From the NCBI GenBank assembly GCA_017881265.1, contig JADGRA010000026.1, positions 1-50,334 of the forward strand: DNA of 50,334 nt. Reading direction: 5' to 3'. Shown one piece after another: positions 17,408 through 23,112 of this stretch. Position numbers and translations under genes: made by a program. The notes beneath the pieces are model-generated. The model saw only the letters and a list, made by a program, of their open reading frames with translations. It had not been told where the DNA came from and ran no database searches. Position 1 is the first letter of the stretch; the number at the start of each line of letters is the position of its first letter. The stretch is from Myxococcaceae bacterium (lineage in GTDB: Bacteria > Myxococcota > Myxococcia > Myxococcales > Myxococcaceae).

Positions 17408-17608
17408 GTGAAGCTGAAAAAGCTCTTTCATGCGCTGGTGCTAGCGGGAACGGCCCTCGGCGCCGTTCACTGCGGCGGCGGCACGTCCACCCCGCCTGGC
17501 AGCAACAGCACCGGCGGTCAGTTGCTCCCCGACGGCGGCATTCCAGACGGCGGCACAGGCGGCACAGGCGGAACGGGTGGCATGCCTGGAGGCCCGCCCG
17601 GCTGGTGA
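17408..17608 (+). CDS. Glycine-rich mini-lipoprotein, coupled to the ferritin-like gene
   Basis: A 66-residue product: basic start MKLKKLF, hydrophobic core, lipobox GAVHC (Cys22), then CGGG and a mature chain of only 44 residues that is almost entirely Gly, Ser, Thr, Pro and Asp, with a GGT-type repeat and a terminal PGGPPGW. A strong AGGAGGA lies 9-15 nt upstream of the GTG at 17408. The stop overlaps the GTG of the ferritin-like gene by four bases (GTGA), so the two are translationally coupled. The mature peptide has no fold that I recognise; it could be an unstructured envelope tether or a substrate of the diiron partner (speculation). Confidence 0.7.
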   Translation: MKLKKLFHALVLAGTALGAVHCGGGTSTPPGSNSTGGQLLPDGGIPDGGTGGTGGTGGMPGGPPGW

Positions 17609-18339
17609 GCGAGTCTAAGGTGCCTTCCCTGCAGGACGTCGTGGCCGGCACCTGGGGCGCCCGGTACAGGATTGAAACCGAGGCCTCCCTTCGCTTCGGC
17701 GCCCTCGCCCGGAGGCTGGACGCCTTCGGCGCGCCCCGGGCGCTGTCGGAGCTTGCCGAGCGCGCCTCCCGGGACGAGACCCGGCATGCGGCGCACTGCG
17801 AGCGCTTCTTCCGCGCCGCTGGCGGGCAACAGCTGACGGGCGTCGACCACGTCGTGGAGTACGCCCCAGCGAGCTGGGCCGAGCCACAGCGGCTGACCTA
17901 TGAAGTGGTCGCCCAGTCGTGTCTCGCCGAGACGCAGAGCACCGCGAGCCTCGTCACCCTGCTGGAGGGTGCCGAGAGCCAAGAGCTGAAGGCCGTCCTG
18001 CACGAGCTTGCCCGAGACGAGGTCCACCACAGCCGCCTTGGTTGGGCGTACCTGGCGTGGGCGCGGCCACGGGTGGACTTCAGCTTCCTCGGCCCGTTGC
18101 TGCCGGGCATGGTGGCAGGCAGCGCTGGCCCGGAGATTTTCAAGCCCGCGCCGGAGGGCGCAGACCACCCGGACTTGCTTCGGCAGGGAGTGGTGCCCCA
18201 TTCGCTTCGCCGCCAGGTGTACGTGGAGACGCTCGAGTCCGTCGTCTTCCCGGGGTTCGAGTCACTCGGCGTGGACGCGGCTGCCGCCAGAAGCTGGCTC
18301 GGTAAGACACTCTCCGACGCTCGCCTCATCCCGGGGTGA
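17605..18339 (+). CDS. Ferritin-like diiron-domain protein
   Basis: A 244-residue helical protein without signal peptide. It carries a ferritin-like ligand set in the right order: Glu26 (RIETEASLRF), Glu58-x-x-His61 (RDETRHAAH), Glu109 (QSCLAETQS), Glu139-x-x-His142 (ARDEVHHSR). This predicts a carboxylate-bridged diiron centre, as in rubrerythrin-like proteins and diiron oxygenases. The C-terminal 70 residues (after FSFLGPLLPG) are not part of the classical bundle. Start GTG 17605 overlaps the stop of the mini-lipoprotein gene, which argues for a joint function. The reaction is unknown. Confidence 0.8.
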   Translation: MSESKVPSLQDVVAGTWGARYRIETEASLRFGALARRLDAFGAPRALSELAERASRDETRHAAHCERFFRAAGGQQLTGVDHVVEYAPASWAEPQRLTYEVVAQSCLAETQSTASLVTLLEGAESQELKAVLHELARDEVHHSRLGWAYLAWARPRVDFSFLGPLLPGMVAGSAGPEIFKPAPEGADHPDLLRQGVVPHSLRRQVYVETLESVVFPGFESLGVDAAAARSWLGKTLSDARLIPG

Positions 18340-18457: not shown

Positions 18458-19246
18458 ATGACGAGGTGGCGCGCAGGCGGGATGGGACGCGCAGGACGGG
18501 CGCTCCTGTCGGTGCTGGCGCTGAGCACGACCCCTGCCTTCGCTGACCGCACCAGCCATCTCTTCGTGGACGAGACGCAAGTCCTCCCGGAGGGGGATGT
18601 CGAGTTGGAAAACTGGGTGTGGACCCAGGGGCAAATTCCCTCCAGTTACCATCCCTTCACCACCGGCTGGATTTGGTTTGGACCGACGGTAGGCATCAGC
18701 AACCACCTGGAGCTGTCGCTGCCCATCACGGTGTACGCGACTTCCCAGGTGATGAAGCTCAACTCCATCAGCCTCGTCGCGCGCTACCGCCTCTTCCCAC
18801 GGGAGCAGGACGACGGGCTGCAGCCGCTGCTCCGCGTCGAATACCAGCAGCCCCTCAGTACAAATCCGTACGCAGGACCGCCCGAGCTCAAAGTCCTGCT
18901 GGCGGCCACCTACGGTCCCCTGAGCGGGGTGCGGGGCACTGTGAACGTCGGCGTGCAGCTGGGCCTTCCCTTCATGCAATCCTCGGCGTCAGGTTCCGTC
19001 TCGGTGCTCGGGACGGCAGCACTCGCCGTGTCCGTCCCGCTGGGGCAGGAGTTCCGCATCGCCGCGGAACTGGACGGGCAGCTTCCCCTGGCCGGCCAGC
19101 CCTACCCCAACCTCGGGCAGCTCTTCCTCGGACCTTCCGTCGCGTGGACCCGGGGACAAATCTGGGTCACCTTCGGGACCCTCTTCGGCTTGACTCTCAA
19201 CTCTTACCGCTTCGTGCCAAAGGTGCTGTGGGGCATTACCTTCTAG
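18458..19246 (+). CDS. Outer-membrane beta-barrel-like protein
   Basis: A 262-residue exported protein with signal RAGRALLSVLALSTTPAFA. The mature chain begins DRTSHLFVDETQVLPEGDVELENWVW and continues as alternating amphipathic strands (GISNHLELSLPITVYA, VARYRLFPRE, LLRVEYQQPL, GTVNVGVQLGLPF, FRIAAELDGQLPL, QIWVTFGTLFGL) and ends with Phe, all features of a small outer-membrane barrel. ATG at 18458 follows GGAGG. Its 3' end overlaps the next gene by 19 bp, and it heads an operon with a cupredoxin, a kinase and, 33 bp later, a sigma factor, so it may be the envelope component that this signalling locus watches or controls. Confidence 0.75.
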   Translation: MTRWRAGGMGRAGRALLSVLALSTTPAFADRTSHLFVDETQVLPEGDVELENWVWTQGQIPSSYHPFTTGWIWFGPTVGISNHLELSLPITVYATSQVMKLNSISLVARYRLFPREQDDGLQPLLRVEYQQPLSTNPYAGPPELKVLLAATYGPLSGVRGTVNVGVQLGLPFMQSSASGSVSVLGTAALAVSVPLGQEFRIAAELDGQLPLAGQPYPNLGQLFLGPSVAWTRGQIWVTFGTLFGLTLNSYRFVPKVLWGITF

Positions 19247-19887
19247 CCTGGCTGGGCTTGGCCCTGTCCGTTCCGGCCCTGGCCGCCGAGGTCGAGGGGT
19301 CTGTCCGTTTCAACACCAAGCTGGGCGAGTCACCGCCCGCCGGGCAGACCATCGTCGTCTACCTCACCGGGTTCCGGCAGACGCCTCTGCCGGAGACGCC
19401 CGTCATCTCCCAGAAGAACAAGACCTTCGTCCCGAACCTGCGCGTCATCGTCGCCGGGCAGTCGGTGCAATTCACCAACGACGACCCGGTCGTCCACAAC
19501 GTCTTCTCCACCTCCTCCGCCCGGGCCTTCGACCTCGGAAAGCCAGGGCCCCAGCAAACGCGGGAAATCTCCTTCCCCACGCCCGGGCTGGTGGACGTCT
19601 ACTGCAACATCCACGAGGCGATGTTTGCCAACGTTCTGGTGCTGCCCAACCGCGCCTTCGCGCTGGTGGACGGCCGTGGGCGCTTCGTCATTCGAGACGT
19701 CCCGCCCGGTCGCTATCCGCTGCACGCCTGGGGGCGTAACCTCGAGCCTTTCGAGACCGAGGTCACCGTCGGCGAGGCAAAAGGCCCGCCCGTCGAGCTG
19801 GTGCTAAGCCCGCGCGCCTTCAACCCCGCCCACCTCGACAAATTCGGGCGCCCCTATCGCGCACGCGCCGGGTACGCGCCACAATGA
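19228..19887 (+). CDS. Secreted cupredoxin-like (type 1 copper) protein
   Basis: A 219-residue exported protein. GTG at 19228 lies inside the end of the preceding gene and gives a signal MGHYLLAWLGLALSVPALAA. The domain (about 25-140) is plastocyanin-like: VRFNTKLGE, FVPNLRVIVAGQSVQFTNDD, then His90 (VVHNVF), Cys126, His129 and Met132 (YCNIHEAMFANVLVLP). These four are exactly a type 1 copper ligand set. The C-terminal part (FVIRDVPPGRYPLHAW onward) is a carboxypeptidase-regulatory-like beta sandwich, a combination seen in methylamine-utilisation-type proteins. A periplasmic electron carrier or copper sensor is likely. ATGA overlap with the kinase gene. Confidence 0.82.
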   Translation: MGHYLLAWLGLALSVPALAAEVEGSVRFNTKLGESPPAGQTIVVYLTGFRQTPLPETPVISQKNKTFVPNLRVIVAGQSVQFTNDDPVVHNVFSTSSARAFDLGKPGPQQTREISFPTPGLVDVYCNIHEAMFANVLVLPNRAFALVDGRGRFVIRDVPPGRYPLHAWGRNLEPFETEVTVGEAKGPPVELVLSPRAFNPAHLDKFGRPYRARAGYAPQ

Positions 19888-21824
19888 GCGCGTCGGCGGG
19901 CGAGCGGTCGGCCCCCACTGCGCCCATTCCCTGTCTCGACGAGAATGCGGTCGCGCTCTACCTGGCCGCAGAAACGCCGGAGGGGGAACGGGAGGCCGTC
20001 CGCGGCCATCTCGACACCTGCGACGTCTGCCGAGAACTCGTCGCGGGGCTGGTGCGCACGCTGGTGAGCGCCGAGCCCGACGAGCCGGTGACGAACTCGC
20101 TGCCGCGCGGCACCAACCTTTCACGCTACGTCGTCCTGGACCTCATCGGGCGCGGCGGCATGGGCGTGGTGTACAGCGCCTATGACCCGGAACTCGACCG
20201 GAAGGTCGCGCTCAAGCTGTTGCGTCCCGACATGGCCGCGCCAGCGGCCGGGCCGGGACGCTCGCAGCTTCTGACCGAGGCCCAGGCCCTGGCCCGGCTG
20301 TCGCATCCCAACATCATCACCGTCTTCGACGCCGGGACCTGGCAGGAGGAAGTCTTCTTCGCCATGGAATTCGTCCGTGGACAGACGCTGCGCAGCGCGC
20401 AGGGGGCGACCGACTTGCGCCCGCGCCGGCTGCTGGACCTCTACCTGGCGGCCGGAACCGGGCTGGCGGCAGCCCACGCCGCCGGCATCATCCACCGCGA
20501 CTTCAAGCCAGAGAATGTCCTGGTCGGTGACGACGGCCGCGTGCGGGTGACGGACTTCGGCCTGGCGCGGCCCACGCACGACGTCGAGGCAGGCATGGCA
20601 GGCACCCCGGCCTACATGGCCCCGGAGCAGTGGCGGGGGGCCGCGGCGGACGCCCGGACCGACCAGTACAGCTTCTGCGTCGCCCTGTACGAGGCGCTCT
20701 ACGGTACCCGGCCCCTGCGCCGGCCGGCAGGGTCCACCGCGCCGGCGCCTCCGGCCCCTCCCCCGACGCGCACCCTGGCCCGCGTCCCGGCGGGCGTCAG
20801 CCGCGTGATTGCCCGGGGCCTGGAGACGGAGCCCGCCGCTCGCTGGACGTCGATGGACGCCCTGGTGGAGGCGCTCCGCGAGGCGCGTCGGCCGTTTCGG
20901 CGCAGGACGCTGCTGGCAGCGGCGGCGCTATTCCTCCTCACCACGGCGGTGTGGACGCGGCATGCACAATCCATTCTGCGCGTCGAGCACGAGCTGAGCG
21001 CGGCCGCGCAGCGGCTGCCCGAGCTGCTTCGGGCTCAGCACGACCTCATCGACCTTCAGGCCAGCGTCGGCTTGCGAGCCGAGGGCGTCCTGGACGCCTT
21101 CGGGCAAGCCAGCAACATGGACGCCGCCCTCGGGCTGGCGGAGAACGCTTCCAAGGAAGAGCAATTCGTCGAGGCGCACGAGGTGATGCGCTCGGCCGAC
21201 TTGCCGGGCCTCAAGGAACGGGACGCGCTGCTGCTGGTGAATGCCTGGGGTCGCGTCATCCTCAACCTGGTCGACCCCGAGGCCTACGGGGCAGCCGCCC
21301 CCGCCCTTCCCCTGCTGGTGAGCACCATGGACGGGGTCGCGGCCGATGAGCTCTGGTCGGCGACGACGCTCGACCGCATCGACATCCCGCTGGTGAAGCC
21401 GGTGCGACAGAAAGACCTGCTCTTCGTCTCAGCACGGCCCGTCGTGCGCGGCGCCTCGGTGGTGGGGGCGATGCTCACCGGAAGCTGGCTCGGGCGGGAC
21501 TTGCTCGAGGAGCTCGCCCGCTCCGCGGGAGCGCGCGTAGCGCTCCACGCGCCGGACGGGGGTTGGGCGGGGGCGAACTGGACGGCCGTGCCGCCGGTGG
21601 GTCGCTTCAGCCGACTGCGCGCAGACGGCCGCGAGCTGGTCGTCTACGGAGTCCAGCTCGGCGCCCCTGGCTCCCACACGCCGGCCGGCGAGGGCTTTGT
21701 CTACCGCGAGCTGGTCCCGGATGCAGGGGCCGCCGACTCCTCCGCTCTTCGCTGGGGCTTGGCCATCGCTTCGCTGGCAGCACTGGGTTGGCTCGCATGG
21801 CTCTGGCTTCGGTACGAGTGGTAG
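19884..21824 (+). CDS. Membrane Ser/Thr protein kinase with N-terminal zf-HC2-like and C-terminal extracytoplasmic sensor
   Basis: A 646-residue protein of unusual order. Residues 20-60 form a zinc-finger like that of anti-sigma factors (His42, Cys46, Cys49 in GHLDTCDVC). Residues about 80-335 are a Hanks-type kinase with everything needed for catalysis: GRGGMGVV (89-96), Lys111, Glu132, HRD 204-206, Lys208, Asn211, DFG 224-226. A membrane helix follows (about 341-358), then a ~260-residue outside domain resembling a double-Cache/phosphatase-type sensor, and a second helix near the C-terminus (WGLAIASLAALGWLAWLWL). It can thus sense envelope signals and phosphorylate or sequester a cytoplasmic partner, plausibly the sigma factor encoded 33 bp downstream. 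Starts by ATGA overlap with the cupredoxin gene. Confidence 0.9.
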   Translation: MSASAGERSAPTAPIPCLDENAVALYLAAETPEGEREAVRGHLDTCDVCRELVAGLVRTLVSAEPDEPVTNSLPRGTNLSRYVVLDLIGRGGMGVVYSAYDPELDRKVALKLLRPDMAAPAAGPGRSQLLTEAQALARLSHPNIITVFDAGTWQEEVFFAMEFVRGQTLRSAQGATDLRPRRLLDLYLAAGTGLAAAHAAGIIHRDFKPENVLVGDDGRVRVTDFGLARPTHDVEAGMAGTPAYMAPEQWRGAAADARTDQYSFCVALYEALYGTRPLRRPAGSTAPAPPAPPPTRTLARVPAGVSRVIARGLETEPAARWTSMDALVEALREARRPFRRRTLLAAAALFLLTTAVWTRHAQSILRVEHELSAAAQRLPELLRAQHDLIDLQASVGLRAEGVLDAFGQASNMDAALGLAENASKEEQFVEAHEVMRSADLPGLKERDALLLVNAWGRVILNLVDPEAYGAAAPALPLLVSTMDGVAADELWSATTLDRIDIPLVKPVRQKDLLFVSARPVVRGASVVGAMLTGSWLGRDLLEELARSAGARVALHAPDGGWAGANWTAVPPVGRFSRLRADGRELVVYGVQLGAPGSHTPAGEGFVYRELVPDAGAADSSALRWGLAIASLAALGWLAWLWLRYEW

Positions 21825-21857
21825 CGTCCCCGTCCCCGAAAGGGGGAGCGGACATCC

Positions 21858-22760
21858 GTGACCTCTTTTCCGCACTCGCGCGTGTTTTGGGAAAAACTGC
21901 CGCGGGCCGCAGGCTTGCGCGCTCGCCCCGGCATCGACGAGCAGCTTGGCAAGCTCCTCGCGCAGGCGCTCGCGGCACGCCCCACGCTGGGCGTTGACGC
22001 AGGGGCCTTCGCCGCACACTGGGCGACGCACCTGTCGCGAAGCCTGGTGCCGGAAGACGAATTGGACCGGCTGCACCTGGCCGACCTCTGCCTGGCCTTC
22101 GCGTGCGGGCACGGCGACCCCGAGGGCCTCCGGCTGTTTCAGGCCGAATTCGTCCCCTTCGCCATCTCGACGGTGCGGGGCGTGGACGCCTCGGACACCT
22201 TCGTCGAGGAGGTCACGCAGCAGCTTCTGGAGCGGATTCTGGTCGCTGCGGCTGGTCCCCCCCGGATTCTCGAGTACGCCGGCCGGGGCTCGCTCGAGCA
22301 CTGGCTGCGGGCCGCGGCGCTCCGCATGGCGCTCAACGCGCGTCGAAGCGCGCGGCGCGCCCCGGACCAACTGGCGGTCGACTCGCAACTGGACGTCGCC
22401 GCGCCCAGCCGCGACATCCAGTTCGAGCTGCTGCTGGCACGGTTCGGGCCTGATTTTGGTGCAGCGCTGAAGGAGGCGATGGCGGAGCTGGGCGCGCAGC
22501 AGCGCAGCCTCCTCAAGCTGCACTTTCTCGACGGCCTCAGCTTCAACCAGATTGGGGCCGTCTACCAGGTGAACAAGTCCACCATCTCCCGCCGCCTGAG
22601 CCAGGCCCGCCAAACGCTTCTGGCGAAGACCCGGGAGCGCCTCGAGCAGCGCTTCCAGCTCGGCCCGCCCGAGCTCGAGAGTCTCATGCGCCTGCTCGGC
22701 CCCGAGCTGGGCTTGAGCTTGACGTCGGTTCTCGCCCACTCCGGCCCGGACAGCACTTGA
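21858..22760 (+). CDS. Sigma-70 family factor, resembling a myxobacteria-specific family
   Basis: A 300-residue RNA polymerase sigma factor. The sigma region 2 equivalent lies about 95-165 (PEGLRLFQAEFVPFAIS through GSLEHWLRAAALRMALNARR), and region 4 is a clear helix-turn-helix (LKLHFLDGLSFNQIGAVYQVNKSTISRRLSQARQ, about 222-255; the first 20 residues carry the turn). The ~85-residue N-terminal extension and C-terminal ~40 residues are outside the ECF core. Size and layout recall the family described as Myxococcales sigma family 1 (TIGR03001), which I name from memory. GTG at 21858 is preceded by AGGGGGAG. Cotranscription with the kinase is likely (33-bp gap); targets unknown. Confidence 0.85.
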   Translation: MTSFPHSRVFWEKLPRAAGLRARPGIDEQLGKLLAQALAARPTLGVDAGAFAAHWATHLSRSLVPEDELDRLHLADLCLAFACGHGDPEGLRLFQAEFVPFAISTVRGVDASDTFVEEVTQQLLERILVAAAGPPRILEYAGRGSLEHWLRAAALRMALNARRSARRAPDQLAVDSQLDVAAPSRDIQFELLLARFGPDFGAALKEAMAELGAQQRSLLKLHFLDGLSFNQIGAVYQVNKSTISRRLSQARQTLLAKTRERLEQRFQLGPPELESLMRLLGPELGLSLTSVLAHSGPDST

Positions 22761-22890
22761 GCGCCGGGCGTCGGCCTCCCCCCCCCGGAGAGCGGCTGCT
22801 TGGATGGCAAACGGCCGCCCATCTTGTTTCCTCGACTTCGGAACGCGCGCCCGGCGATGCTCAGAAATTTCCTAGGAGGCTTCCCCCCCT

Positions 22891-23112
22891 TTGAATGGCA
22901 AACGCGTGAAATTGGTCCTCGCCGCGCTCCTCGGTCTCGCCGGCGCCGGCTGCAATACCGGCGGCATCAGCTTGAACAACTACACGTGCACCGGCTACTG
23001 CAACGGTGAGCCCATGCCCATTCTCATCATGCAGGCCCCGGACCATTTGACGGCCTGCACCGAGTACCTCGAGTACTGCCGCGGCACCGGAATCTGCCTC
23101 AGCTGCACCTGA
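22891..23112 (+). CDS. Cysteine-rich mini-lipoprotein
   Basis: A 73-residue lipoprotein. TTG at 22891 is favoured because AGGAGG (22874-22879) lies 11 nt upstream; GTG at 22906 would be 26 nt away. The signal is KRVKLVLAALLGLAGAGC. The mature chain has six Cys besides the lipid-bearing one, in three close pairs (YTCTGYCNG, TACTEYLEYC, GICLSCT), suggesting three disulfides or a metal knot. No known family recognised. It lies 130 bp after the sigma factor gene and may be a target of the signalling locus. The upstream leader is long and carries its own ribosome binding site. Confidence 0.65.
   Translation: MNGKRVKLVLAALLGLAGAGCNTGGISLNNYTCTGYCNGEPMPILIMQAPDHLTACTEYLEYCRGTGICLSCT

Follow-up and report, generated by a model that had tools for sequence, protein, structure and literature searches.

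How might a signal at the cell envelope reach a sigma factor through a locus that joins an outer-membrane barrel, a secreted copper protein, a membrane kinase and the sigma factor itself? The question is raised by four consecutive genes on the forward strand of a 50,334-nucleotide stretch of Myxococcaceae DNA (hereafter the window, meaning the whole stretch that was analyzed). The genome bearing the window comprises 4.4 Mb in 81 contigs, and its nearest named relatives are Myxococcaceae MAGs. In order, the genes encode the barrel (18458–19246), a cupredoxin (19228–19887), a Ser/Thr kinase with a zinc finger and a double-Cache sensor (19884–21824), and a sigma factor of the Sig-70_gmx1 family with a GTG start (21858–22760). 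The original prediction placed this four-gene layout exactly: coordinates, the 19-nt overlap, the 4-nt ATGA overlap and the 33-nt gap all agree. A lack of neighbourhood conservation had been named beforehand as a refuting outcome; the result went in favour of the prediction, as the four-gene set was seen again in three other Myxococcaceae genomes. The four genes form a genuine operon.

A fifth proposed member, a Cys-rich mini-lipoprotein (open frame 22891–23112), did not survive: we exclude it from the locus because a search of 195 Myxococcota genomes found nothing related to it. In L102, a related locus, no mini-lipoprotein-like gene stands 3' of the sigma gene. The word ATGGCAAACG is found twice in the window, at 22804–22813 and 22895–22904, 91 nt apart, both copies sitting immediately ahead of the mini-lipoprotein frame. 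On the other side of the locus, a rubrerythrin/ferritin-like protein is encoded at 17605–18339, upstream of the barrel; L102 and L103 have close homologues in the corresponding place, and it may therefore belong to the locus in that lineage. A search for a shared promoter upstream of the barrel revealed no common word of at least 7 bases in the three genomes compared.

The barrel protein (262 residues) has no match in Pfam or NCBIfam. AlphaFold modelling with 18 relatives predicts a confident 12-strand outer-membrane beta-barrel (pLDDT 85) with a helical, signal-type N-terminus, and the closest structures found by Foldseek are FapF, NanC and a COG4313 channel, at ∼6–11% identity. Comparison with DUF3034 gave an hhalign probability of 6%, with shallow profiles on which to base it. 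The neighbouring cupredoxin, predicted to be secreted, gives weak Pfam and NCBIfam cupredoxin matches and carries a CarboxypepD_reg-like C-terminal domain, the Pfam scores lying under the curated cut-offs. Its amicyanin-like motif CNIHEAM (Cx2Hx2M), together with H90, supplies the originally predicted type-1 copper ligand set His, Cys, His, Met, as judged from sequence: the putative ligands H90, C126, H129 and M132 are invariant across 19 relatives that span Myxococcota, Acidobacteriota and Pseudomonadota. Cupredoxins are, as a rule, electron carriers.

The 646-residue kinase combines a zinc finger, a catalytic domain and a sensor in one chain. The predicted zinc site (19932–20030) was read as the motif C17-x24-H42-x3-C46-x2-C49, so that the pattern H/C-x24-H-x3-C-x2-C is satisfied; the zf-HC2 match of this region (E = 1.3e-4) barely exceeds the Pfam cut-off. 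We take this spacing to be that of the zinc-binding anti-sigma domains of RsrA and ChrR. The kinase domain (20127–20906; Pkinase, E = 2e-38) contains both HRDFKPEN (HRDxKxxN) and DFG, the motifs expected of an active Hanks-type enzyme. Beyond it, at 20910–21803, lies the predicted double-Cache sensor with two flanking hydrophobic segments (residues 343–361 and 622–640), both of moderate score only. The sensor assignment draws on fold, hydrophobicity and homology to cyclase sensors: the AlphaFold model of the C-terminus (pLDDT 79) has a double-Cache fold with a Z of 13 to dCache ligand-binding domains, Pfam dCache_3 stays under its cut-off here, and the sensors of the window, L102 and L103/L216 share 23–30% identity with those of the cyclases in barrel-cupredoxin loci. 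The sequence thus supports both features on the same kinase, an anti-sigma-type zinc site with its full set of ligands and a sensor of the Cache type.

The sigma factor matches TIGR03001 (Sig-70_gmx1) with 221.2 bits against a cut-off of 154.6 (E = 1e-65), and its paralogues in its own genome amount to weak matches (E of 3e-5 or worse). An EcfP-like loss of the DAED motif was considered and rejected: the acidic pair of FVEE aligns with DAED in region 2.2, and the pair is retained in the window and in most relatives. No activating phosphate would therefore be needed there. We sampled 20 gmx1 sigma relatives spread along the match list and fetched ∼5 kb on each side. All 20 sigma genes adjoin a gene for an HxxxCxxC kinase, whose orientation varies and which mostly lies within a few hundred bases, and the full [CH]x24HxxxCxxC site is present in 18 of these kinases. 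When the window and three further kinases are included, a Cys or His stands exactly 24 residues upstream of HxxxCxxC in 22 of 24. The one gmx1-paired kinase inspected over its whole length has TPR repeats at its end, with no membrane segment seen. The zinc-finger kinase and the gmx1 sigma factor are a fixed pair, the first of two conserved modules in this locus.

The second module emerged from barrel and sensor profile searches of 195 Myxococcota genomes. The barrel profile gave 23 strong matches, 22 of which adjoin a cupredoxin gene, which supports placing barrel and cupredoxin in one unit; in the remaining case a kinase parts the two. The sensor profile found matches in 20 genomes, and 20 of its 21 copies (a gene divided between two contigs included) lie within barrel-cupredoxin loci. 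In 16 loci the third protein is an adenylate/guanylate cyclase with an N-terminal sensor followed by HAMP, its identity resting on Pfam for six and on a catalytic motif plus the sensor match for the others. Only four loci have the kinase-sigma form, one in the window and three in relatives. Three of these (window, L102 and L103/L216) have a C-terminal sensor on the zinc-finger kinase, and the gmx1 sigma comes next; in L138 the order is kinase-barrel-cupredoxin, the sigma gene is divergent and the sensor match is weak. In L164, the gene between cupredoxin and barrel encodes a HAMP kinase whose N-terminal part is extracytoplasmic. Barrel, cupredoxin and double-Cache receptor travel together. In most relatives they serve adenylate cyclases; this input module can therefore be uncoupled from the sigma factor.

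Several other arrangements were observed in Myxococcota. In L086 (9223–14283), a barrel-cupredoxin-cyclase set is preceded, at a distance of 20 nt, by a gmx1 sigma gene whose zinc-finger kinase is divergent. The sole sensor-family copy outside barrel-cupredoxin loci, in L217 (5690–7312), is a 540-residue protein with the sensor at its N-terminus and an oppositely oriented kinase gene next door. Another Myxococcota cluster (L094, L095, L096, L101, L114–L126) has a cupredoxin that belongs to the same family but is extended at its N-terminus, and, ∼2.5 kb away, a kinase that is membrane-linked in its N-terminal half; two uncharacterised genes stand between them.

The trees place the window with its closest relatives for both halves of the kinase-sigma pair: kinases and sigmas each group the window with L102 and L216 (SH-aLRT 99). 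For the grouping of L138 with these, AU tests gave p = 0.42 for the kinases and 0.076 for the sigmas. In the simplest history, a zinc-finger kinase would have acquired, at its free end, the sensor of a cyclase system, a direction that we infer.

Cupredoxin-receptor clusters are also found outside Myxococcota. All six annotated plasmid records that we examined (five from Caballeronia, one from Novosphingobium) contain DUF3034, a truncated globin and a cupredoxin, the last annotated as "methylamine utilization protein" or carboxypeptidase-regulatory-like; the cluster is followed by an EAL-domain protein in five records and by a short cache-domain gene in the sixth. In Comamonas the order is DUF4394-cupredoxin-EAL. 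Among gammaproteobacteria, a receptor is present in 17 of the 20 best loci after the Alishewanella locus: nine GGDEF-EAL proteins, three cyclases, four Ser/Thr kinases and one histidine kinase. Pfam found dCache_3 or dCache_1 in all ten receptors searched and HAMP in nine. These receptors cluster beside the cupredoxin (14 of 17 within 40 of 160 slots, P = 2e-7), an approximate value, given that gene calls were mechanical and related loci are not independent. In L093 a dCache_3 chemoreceptor adjoins the cupredoxin on the opposite strand, and in the acidobacterial L104 a histidine kinase with CHASE4/dCache_3 lies 1.6 kb from it. Cupredoxins of the family also occur with no receptor nearby, in L198, L208, L213 and many Myxococcota loci. 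The Pseudomonadota clusters (L189–L194 and L105) usually include a truncated globin. In L105 the start of the globin resembles a lipoprotein signal, which hints at an exported globin, with NO or O2 as a possible signal.

How, then, might the two modules work together in the window? The account that we propose, and to which we give an even chance of being right, is a two-module envelope receptor: barrel, cupredoxin and double-Cache domain form the input, the zinc-finger kinase and its dedicated gmx1 sigma form the output, and the kinase holds and then frees the sigma factor. The double-Cache domain would sit in the periplasm, anchored by a membrane helix on either side, with the N-terminus of the kinase and its zinc-binding anti-sigma domain on the cytoplasmic side. 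Without a signal, the zinc domain would tether the sigma factor to the membrane. The cupredoxin, whether loaded with copper, oxidised or bound to a ligand, and perhaps supplied via the barrel, would then engage the Cache domain, and the kinase would phosphorylate itself or its own finger, letting the sigma factor go. The envelope input would probably be copper or redox. Points that weigh against this account are the marginal zf-HC2 score, the moderate scores of the two hydrophobic segments, the family's cupredoxins that occur with no receptor nearby, and the sensor copy of L217. Kinase-driven release has a precedent in Mycobacterium tuberculosis, where PknB acts on the anti-sigma factors RshA and RseA (PMC8999054); there the kinase acts in trans, whereas here anti-sigma domain and kinase would share one chain.

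The same evidence must be weighed against a different division of labour, in which barrel and cupredoxin are effectors (for metal or electron transfer, or solute uptake) under the control of the kinase and sigma factor or of the cyclase, and the Cache domain senses a small molecule alone. Such an arrangement would suit the usual electron carriage of cupredoxins, the position of barrel and cupredoxin at the opening of the operon, and known double-Cache domains, which, going by titles, bind small ligands such as amino acids. We nevertheless consider it rather unlikely, since the sensor family hardly ever occurs apart from the barrel-cupredoxin pair, and the pair keeps the same sensor even where it is coupled to a cyclase or a c-di-GMP enzyme, outputs without direct control over a local promoter. 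That the same receptor has other outputs in relatives points to one reusable envelope sensor plugged into different switches.

A further question is whether the sigma factor is released or activated. The kinase could directly phosphorylate and activate the sigma, as PknT does EcfP of the ECF43 group, with the zinc finger merely docking; a receptor kinase does adjoin the sigma here, an arrangement shared with ECF43 and related groups (PMC8103513; PMC13147305). However, EcfP must be phosphorylated and has STTA where DAED stands (PMC8103513), whereas the window and most relatives keep the acidic pair, and ECF43 is not a gmx1 family. Direct activation is therefore improbable in our judgement; the acidic pair in region 2.2, unlike EcfP, favours release of a sequestered sigma. 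That the adjacency itself reflects chance or faulty assembly might be suspected of a window from an 81-contig genome, but L102 and L103/L216, Myxococcaceae MAGs whose assemblies are independent, show the same order, L138 has it in rearranged form, and we give this explanation very little credence.

Taken more broadly, the two modules suggest a wider claim, which we advance tentatively and hold at somewhat less than even: barrel, cupredoxin and double-Cache receptor may be a general, hitherto undescribed envelope copper/redox sensing module present in several phyla and plugged into most signalling outputs (cyclase, c-di-GMP enzymes, histidine kinase, Ser/Thr kinase and sigma), and the zinc-finger kinases may form a new class of anti-sigma factors that are kinases in their own right and the standing partners of gmx1 sigmas. 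We found neither module described in the literature searched, in which subscription journals were thinly covered, so that an earlier mention is possible. If the claim is true, one envelope input has come to drive five or more kinds of output, a natural experiment in the exchange of receptor outputs, and the cupredoxin would be a signal carrier, a role beyond electron carriage. Many myxobacterial gmx1 sigmas would also gain a common, testable form of control, with the anti-sigma domain and the kinase that releases it in one chain.

Comparison with known systems shows what is shared and what differs. The ECF43 pairs EcfP-PknT and EcfK-PknS likewise consist of a sigma factor and a neighbouring membrane Ser/Thr kinase, one domain of which is extracytoplasmic. 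We found no zinc anti-sigma finger mentioned for PknS (PMC13147305), whereas the window kinase has one, and ECF43 is without the DAED acidic motif, whereas gmx1 retains the acidic pair. The Caballeronia and Novosphingobium clusters with DUF3034 and globin resemble the window in setting a homologous cupredoxin beside a double-Cache GGDEF-EAL receptor, but their output is c-di-GMP turnover. The barrel-cupredoxin-adenylate cyclase loci of Myxococcaceae have a barrel, cupredoxin and sensor homologous to those of the window; their sensor is N-terminal, followed by HAMP and the cyclase output, and a sigma gene is absent from the operon except in L086. Finally, the ZAS factors ChrR, RsrA and RshA have the same zinc-site pattern and are likewise encoded beside a sigma factor; in the window, by contrast, the zinc site, with its putative anti-sigma role, is part of the same chain as a kinase and a membrane sensor.
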